From contig CACOHS010000002.1 in the NCBI GenBank assembly GCA_902627055.1, forward strand, positions 68,380 to 132,379: a DNA stretch of 64,000 bases, read 5' to 3'. Made by a program: the position numbers and the translations under genes. Source of the DNA: an uncultured SAR86 cluster bacterium. GTDB taxonomy: Bacteria > Pseudomonadota > Gammaproteobacteria > Magnimaribacterales > D2472. Positions 37,115 to 38,561 of this stretch are shown here, one piece after another; positions within the stretch are counted from its first letter, which is position 1, and the number at the start of each line of letters is the position of its first letter. The notes below the pieces were generated by a model. It was not told where the DNA came from. It was given only the letters and a program-made list of their open reading frames with translations, and did not search any database.

Positions 37115-37978
37115 TTAAGAGTTTTTTCGTTTTTTAACTGAATTAGCATAATACATACCCATCATAACAAATATAAAACCACCAAATATTATCAATGTGA
37201 TACTTTCATTCAAAAAAATAGCGCCCCAGATAATACTAAATACTGGAAGCAAATAAGTTAGAGTTGATGTTTTTACAGCACCAATTCTATCAATAAGCCT
37301 TACATATCCAAGATATCCTATTCCAGTTGACACAACGGCAAGCCATAACAATGCTAAAAAAGAATTTAAATTAGGTATTTGATTAGGCAGATTAAAAACT
37401 GCTAAAGGCAGCATTAATAATCCACCAAAAAGCATCGACCAACCTATTAGCACTATTTTATTTGAATTGTAATGATACTTTTGAAGGTAATTTCCATTAA
37501 ATGCATAACAAAGTGACCCAATCAATGCACAAATACTAGCCAAAATTGTGCTTGAACCATTGGCAGGATTGACTAGGATTATCACGCCAATAAAACCTAG
37601 ACAGAGGCCCAAAATTTGTTTTGACGATATGGATTCATTCAACCAAAAATAAGCAATAACAGTGGTTAAAAAAGCAGTTGTTCCATTGAGAATACCAAGC
37701 ATATTAGAAGTAGCGCCAAGTGAGGCAAATGCAAAAAGCGTAAATGGTAATGCGTTGCTTATGACTGCAATAATAAGAATACTTGGAAAATATGATTTGA
37801 ATTTAAGCCTATTTTGCCTCTGAAGTAGCAAGGGCATAAATACAAGACCAGCTATTAAAAGTCTTAATGTGACCAAAAGAATTGGGCCAAAGTCTACTGC
37901 AGAAATTTTTATAAACATGAAGGCGCTGCCCCATATTGCTGCGAGTGAAATTAATAAAAACCAATCTTTAGATTCCAT
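37115..37978 (-). CDS. EamA-family DMT transporter
   Basis: Two repeated EamA halves; AAIWGSAFMFIKIS, LLPVFSIIWGAIFLNES. Confidence 0.93.
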   Translation of the reverse strand: MESKDWFLLISLAAIWGSAFMFIKISAVDFGPILLVTLRLLIAGLVFMPLLLQRQNRLKFKSYFPSILIIAVISNALPFTLFAFASLGATSNMLGILNGTTAFLTTVIAYFWLNESISSKQILGLCLGFIGVIILVNPANGSSTILASICALIGSLCYAFNGNYLQKYHYNSNKIVLIGWSMLFGGLLMLPLAVFNLPNQIPNLNSFLALLWLAVVSTGIGYLGYVRLIDRIGAVKTSTLTYLLPVFSIIWGAIFLNESITLIIFGGFIFVMMGMYYANSVKKRKNS

Positions 37979-38060: not shown

Positions 38061-38091
38061 AAAAAAAAGAAGCCTCTATAAAGAGGCTTCT
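38061..38091 (-). terminator. Intrinsic terminator
   Basis: Perfect 10-bp stem AGAAGCCTCT/AGAGGCTTCT, 4-nt loop; minus strand continues TTTTTTTT. Confidence 0.92.
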
Positions 38092-38192
38092 AACTATCAG
38101 AGTTAGATAAGTCTGATAGGCGAATTCGGTGATTCACCTCTTGTCAAAAGGCGAGCCCTCCGTTTTCTAATTTAATATAAATACTAATAAGA

Positions 38193-38225
38193 TCACCTCC
38201 TGTGCAAGGGTATTAAAAAAGACAT
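38193..38225 (-). CDS. Putative 10-aa leader peptide MSFLIPLHRR
   Basis: ATG preceded by AAGGGGAUUUUUUU; stop codon lies inside AGGAGGUGAUC. Confidence 0.35.
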   Translation of the reverse strand: MSFLIPLHRR

Positions 38226-38327
38226 AAAAAAATCCCCTTAGTAATTTATTTATGCGACATCTATTAAAAATTATATAGAGAAAACTCTAGAATTAAAGAC
38301 CGAAATTATCAAAAGAATTGAAACTTT

Positions 38328-38561
38328 TTAATGCAATAGTTCTGGCTGATAATATTCCTTACTTTCCATCGAATTAAGATTAGAAAAATGATCGTCGTTT
38401 GAGTCTTCTGTCATATTAATATTAAGGTATTCGAGTGCCTGTTGAAGATCTGCACCGAAATATTTGAATGCAATAGTTTTTAATCCGGCAGTTTTATCGA
38501 CAAAAGCTTCGTATTCATTAAATATTGGATCCAAAGCGTTTAAATGTAAAATGTTATTCAT
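38328..38561 (-). CDS. Hypothetical 77-aa protein, predicted LexA/SOS-controlled
   Basis: AGGAA 6 nt upstream of ATG; near-consensus LexA box and promoter directly upstream. Confidence 0.7.
   Translation of the reverse strand: MNNILHLNALDPIFNEYEAFVDKTAGLKTIAFKYFGADLQQALEYLNINMTEDSNDDHFSNLNSMESKEYYQPELLH

Follow-up and report, generated by a model that had tools for sequence, protein, structure and literature searches.

Comparative analysis supports a structured RNA, conserved in the SAR86 cluster and marked by strong covariation, on the minus strand of the window (the whole 64,000-nucleotide stretch of DNA that was analysed). This RNA is previously uncatalogued and absent from Rfam. With slightly better than even confidence, the element is read here as a small gene that all or almost all SAR86 carry once per genome and that would act as a stand-alone mini-mRNA whose deliberately weak initiation is controlled by a pseudoknot. 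Few uncultured bacterial groups are as abundant in the surface ocean as SAR86. Its genomes measure about 1.3 Mb, so a small RNA that is retained almost throughout the group probably has an important role. The AUU start of its mini-ORF conceals it from ordinary gene callers. The design, namely a perfect Shine-Dalgarno (SD) sequence, a weak start and a pseudoknot, leads to a specific and testable prediction on IF3-dependent initiation.

Distribution, boundaries and gene context

The window originates from SAR86, and its EamA gene matches records titled SAR86 cluster bacterium. Of 61 related genomes, 33 gave a blastn match to the element; among the weakest of these matches are a few short, chance-like ones. 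A covariance model of its 5′ domain (R1) was used to survey the genomes of the SAR86 order and, with cmsearch E-values that are rough, found exactly one copy per genome in 139 of 204. Among the 40 genomes with a completeness of at least 90%, 36 have a copy, and the copies cover 21 of the 22 SAR86 genera (four families); many of the misses are incomplete genomes. Phage records contained no match to the element. Nothing in Rfam 15 reached the gathering threshold, in line with the first-pass annotation, which had recognised no known riboswitch class; among the weak sub-threshold matches the best was GibS (27.8 of 115 bits, E 0.2). An identity with 6S RNA or tmRNA was rejected, as the genome has its own copies elsewhere (G000:C1:215265 and G000:C1:34174, respectively). 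A description of the RNA was not found in the literature, of which subscription papers lay mostly outside the coverage.

The transcript is expected to start near 38263-38260, immediately 5′ of the UGUC strand of P1, and would extend for about 195 nt to its own terminator (Table 1). The promoter scan did not find a good -35 box upstream of the -10 box. For the terminator, an exact 10-bp stem with U8, 0.2 occurrences were expected in shuffled sequences. The 215-nt strand of the window folds with -54.2 kcal/mol (z -3.27) and is more stable than 200 of 200 shuffles. The RNAs of families f2 and f3 (L043-L046, L082-L092 and L098-L106) have, 5′ of the terminator, an extra hairpin whose conserved loop resembles GUUGAGAUAC; this feature is absent in f1 and f4. 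Between the terminator and EamA (38060-37979, minus strand), a TTTAAAATTC block is conserved in the genus of the window; it may be the own promoter of EamA, and the gap that carries it is missing in most other f1 genera.

Table 1. Features of the SAR86 RNA and its neighbour in the window, listed from 5′ to 3′ on the minus strand.
Feature	Positions	Strand	Remarks
-10 box TATAAT	38270..38275	-	from sequence; retained in f1, AT-rich equivalents at equal distance in f2-f4
P1 5′ strand UGUC	38256..38259	-	pairs with 38145-38142 (GACA)
P2 hairpin GCAUAAAUAAAU / AUUUUUUUAUGU, loop UACUAAGGGG	38222..38255	-	12 bp, covariation
Pseudoknot 5′ strand AGGGG	38234..38238	-	within P2 loop; covarying exchanges
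Pseudoknot 3′ strand CCCUU	38206..38210	-	covarying exchanges
Extended SD AGGAGGUGAUC	38191..38201	-	perfect 11-nt complement of the SAR86 16S 3′ end GAUCACCUCCU
Mini-ORF ISIYIKLENGGLAF	38144..38188	-	AUU start, 14 codons, UGA stop overlapping P1
P1 3′ strand GACA	38142..38145	-	compensatory exchanges at outer pair
P4 hairpin GGUGAAU / AUUCGCC	38119..38138	-	weakly supported
P5 hairpin UAUCAGA / UCUGAUA	38095..38118	-	compensatory changes
Intrinsic terminator, 10 bp + U8	38061..38091	-	all families, stem sequences differing
EamA transporter gene	37115..37978	-	PF00892; neighbour in f1 and f4 only, outside the conserved unit

The genes around the RNA vary from one family to another. In f1 and f4 the order is mostly an ORF of about 70 residues, the RNA and EamA. 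The ORF that precedes the RNA in the window (77 residues, 38328-38561, minus strand) has no Pfam match; it is conserved beside the RNA in f1 genera and recognisable in f4 (L095). In f2, the RNA mostly has an oxidoreductase gene on one side and a cupin-like gene, convergent with it, on the other, with the exception of one genus in which it lies 5′ of panB and another in which it lies 3′ of a TonB-type gene. In f3 it is flanked by a DASS-type transporter and, in convergent orientation, an SDR gene. In G501, a relative from family f67, the flanking genes are ThpR-like and, again convergent, GAF-domain-like; all these neighbours, except EamA and rhodanese, were named by eye from their translations. 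Since the downstream genes differ between families, and a promoter-like -10 and a terminator are kept throughout, the element would be a stand-alone RNA gene.

Secondary structure and covariation

Comparison of the homologues upholds P1, P2, the pseudoknot between the P2 loop and a downstream strand, and P5. The outer pair of P1 exchanges among UA, AU and CG, and outside SAR86 the helix is CGUC/GACG in G577 and CGUU/AACG in G501. For P2, changes on both sides were observed at 8 of the 12 pairs in alignment A2 (16 sequences), at 7 of 12 in a separate alignment of seven sequences from other genera, and at all 12 in alignment A4 (55 distinct sequences). The covariation in A4 was 0.509, against 0.217 when shuffled and at most 0.095 when slid, A4 having been fitted to the structure and hence being biased towards it. 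The P2 loop and the stretch between P2 and the SD form an H-type pseudoknot that ends about 5 nt 5′ of the SD. Its pairs, counted with a simple script, exchange as AAGGG/CCCUU, GAGGG/CCCUC, CAGGG/CCCUG and UGGGG/CCCUA, and as CAGAG/CUCUG in f4. The letters of loop and linker are unconserved; conserved unpaired letters include AUUAGUAUU, CAGGAA and UUCCGACU.

The first-pass annotation had described this region as a candidate structured RNA switch with two mutually exclusive hairpins, the second of which overlaps a terminator. The elements that it named (TATAAT, GGTGAATCACC, CTATCAGA/TCTGATAG and TCTAACT/AGTTAGA) are all present, and so is the 10-bp terminator with U8, which the comparative data uphold. 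Covariation across homologues, its suggested check, turned out to be strong. The hairpin CUAUCAGA/UCUGAUAG (P5) withstood the comparison, with compensatory changes in 4 of the 7 pairs tested and 98.8% of the cells paired. Its proposed competitor, UCUAACU/AGUUAGA, does not have a single pair with a compensatory change and is broken in L003, L009 and others, and a further stem, UCGCCUUUU-GAC-AAGAGGUGA, is lost in other genera. The conserved structured RNA therefore stands, whereas the two-state switch finds no support, because the alternative hairpin shows no compensating change while P5 covaries and the terminator is kept. As regards the remaining hairpins, P4 has 83% of its cells paired and a both-side change at one pair; P3, an RNAalifold prediction in which CCUUUU would sequester the SD, shows nearly all its changes on a single strand, and neither f4 nor the relatives outside SAR86 keep it intact. 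The parts that are best supported had been overlooked: P2 with its pseudoknot, the perfect 11-nt SD and the AUU open reading frame.

Ribosome-binding site and mini-ORF

The sequence GGAGGUG[AG]UC does not vary among the aligned copies. In the genome of the window, the 11-mer AGGAGGUGAUC has three occurrences, one in the element, one opposite the 16S end and one at another site. The spacing from GGAGG to AUU/AUC is 7-9 nt, which places an extended 16S complementarity at start-site distance from a conserved weak start; among 62 distinct copies, this start is AUU in 58, AUC in 4 and AUG in none. The frame that follows is open in 57 of 57 aligned copies and comprises 14 codons (13 in one copy), with the UGA stop inside P1. 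In-frame stops are avoided, 0 being seen against a mean of 5.3 sequences when columns were shuffled within families (P=0.0006), a procedure that removes shared ancestry incompletely. This avoidance is confined to one frame, and it accompanies the preserved open frame as is looked for in a peptide-coding sequence. The peptide sequence itself appears to be hardly conserved within SAR86, because the codon-position entropy (0.79/0.92/0.80) reveals no position bias and the synonymous share (24% versus 16% and 23% in the other frames) no clear excess. Residues S2, G8 and G11 recur. Judged from the alignments, conservation is stricter for the open frame than for the peptide.

Two further coding candidates were rejected: an upstream ORF1 (MSFLIPLHRR*), whose ATG, situated in the P2 3′ strand, is missing from L025 and from other genera, and a prfB-like +1 frameshift at UUU UGA C, whose +1 frame was seen by eye to be unconserved. 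As a separate observation, also by eye, an ATG was not seen near the expected start of the infC frames L164 and L165 (from G040 and G000), where the candidates are ATA or ATC/TTG; some SAR86 infC genes seem to lack an AUG.

Relatives of the element occur outside SAR86. A broader covariance model (R2), applied to 369 gammaproteobacterial genomes, detected one further locus, in G501 (36 bits), and blastn within the order of G501 led to G577 (41 bits). Both carry P1, P2, the pseudoknot and the SD, and their ORFs start with AUG and have again 14 codons (MSNDSMCAASGATC and MSNRCIIGAPGGTC). A pattern search, which matched in 15 genomes and in none of the reversed control, added G312 and G428, relatives from family f113 with a similar hairpin, pseudoknot and SD (by eye) and the ORF MS[DN]GCIEVLTG, of 11 codons versus 14 in SAR86. 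Within a sampling that is thin outside SAR86, the AUG-start relatives belong to two other gammaproteobacterial families. That AUG occupies exactly the position of the SAR86 AUU speaks more strongly than any other single observation for translation of the SAR86 frame. A class-wide search for the pseudoknot and SD pattern yielded, beyond the known families, only GC-rich and chance-like matches, and its control matched too.

The pattern search also gave mini-ORF genes that lack the pseudoknot and fall into two groups; one group is a weak match to CC2171. Stand-alone gammaproteobacterial mini-ORFs of 18-26 codons (MSS...) are located at L131, L135, L136, L133, L134 and L144 (around position 1500). 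They have a terminator and, as SD, a perfect AGGAGGTGATC, but no pseudoknot; L133, L134 and L144 reach 33-44 of 75 bits with the CC2171 model. These loci may belong together in a larger class of RNAs with a mini-ORF and a perfect SD, and the layout that they and CC2171 have in common is a hint of a broader class that has been overlooked.

Proposed function and comparison with known systems

IF3 discriminates against starts of the AUU/AUC type. In the favoured reading, that of a mini-mRNA, the 30S subunit would dock on the long SD and initiate weakly at AUU/AUC to produce a 14-residue peptide, the maximal SD compensating for the weak start. The pseudoknot, about 5 nt upstream, and P1, closing over the stop codon, would set the ease of 30S loading and provide the mini-mRNA with a built-in translational control. 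From the structure, conservation, open frame and 16S complementarity found in the sequences, we infer that the RNA is transcribed and translated, that its initiation depends on IF3 and that the pseudoknot controls it. A bolder version, which we consider unlikely, is that of a core single-copy RNA that senses the ribosome. Pseudoknot, 11-nt anti-16S site and AUU mini-ORF would together read the initiation capacity (IF3 or free 30S), the act of translation, and not the peptide, would signal to a trans function, and the RNA would represent a single lineage within a larger proteobacterial class of mini-ORF RNAs with a perfect SD.

Other explanations have to be weighed against the mini-mRNA. It is possible, if somewhat doubtful, that the RNA is non-coding and acts in trans, its purine-rich AGGAGGUGAUC stretch binding 16S rRNA, a protein or mRNAs at pyrimidine-rich sites, with a frame that is incidental or merely ribosome-recruiting. 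A stand-alone gene with strong structure, conserved unpaired letters and no codon-position bias would be well accommodated in this way, but not the avoidance of in-frame stops in one frame only, nor an SD-to-AUU spacing equal to that of a real start, nor the use of AUG in place of AUU outside SAR86 with the ORF length unchanged. A covarying H-type pseudoknot so close to the SD also recalls a translational riboswitch or a protein-binding operator, in which the pseudoknot would sense a ligand and control the mini-ORF. This is improbable, given that the unconserved letters of loop and linker leave no obvious ligand pocket and that the ORF to be controlled has 14 codons only.

The view of the first-pass annotation, a cis leader that attenuates or switches the transcription of EamA, is highly improbable. 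The ATG of EamA does lie about 83 nt past the terminator in the window, and in f1 and f4 the gene is directly 3′ of the RNA, its distance from the U-tract often being only a few nucleotides. However, the same RNA is found beside unrelated genes, often convergent, in f2, f3 and f67, the competing hairpin lacks covariation, and a conserved antiterminator was not found in the homologues. An EamA attenuator was rejected on the grounds that the exclusive terminator/antiterminator pair is not kept and that the RNA is retained without EamA. The comparison of gene contexts suggests that switching EamA in cis is not the main role of the RNA; some cis effect on EamA is possible in f1 and f4, and in f1 this may be a control by read-through, because EamA often begins a few bases past the U-tract.

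Several known systems share part of this design. CC2171, a Caulobacter sRNA (Rfam RF01867), has the consensus GAAAGGAGGUGAUCCAGUGUC, in which GUG, as a possible start, follows the same perfect SD, and at its 3′ end a hairpin that resembles a terminator; unlike the SAR86 RNA, its model lacks the P2 hairpin and the pseudoknot, and it did not match the window at E up to 5. SgrS/SgrT and PhrS are dual-function sRNAs, that is, small stand-alone RNA genes with a short ORF, whereas the SAR86 ORF is much shorter and is preceded by a pseudoknot 5′ of the SD. In the rpsO operator and in the preQ1-II and SAM-II riboswitches, a pseudoknot lies directly 5′ of the SD, as in the SAR86 RNA; the latter differs in having no Rfam match, unconserved loop letters and a tiny downstream ORF. 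In Staphylococcus aureus, the non-canonical AUU/AUA starts of infC, cvfC1 and ccpN are accompanied by strong, extended SD sequences and are less efficient in initiation, with IF3 named as modulator (PMC13009471). These genes, together with infC of Escherichia coli, resemble the SAR86 RNA in that a weak start, modulated by IF3, is offset by an extended SD (PMC13009471), but they encode full proteins, whereas the SAR86 ORF consists of 14 codons within a pseudoknotted, stand-alone RNA.
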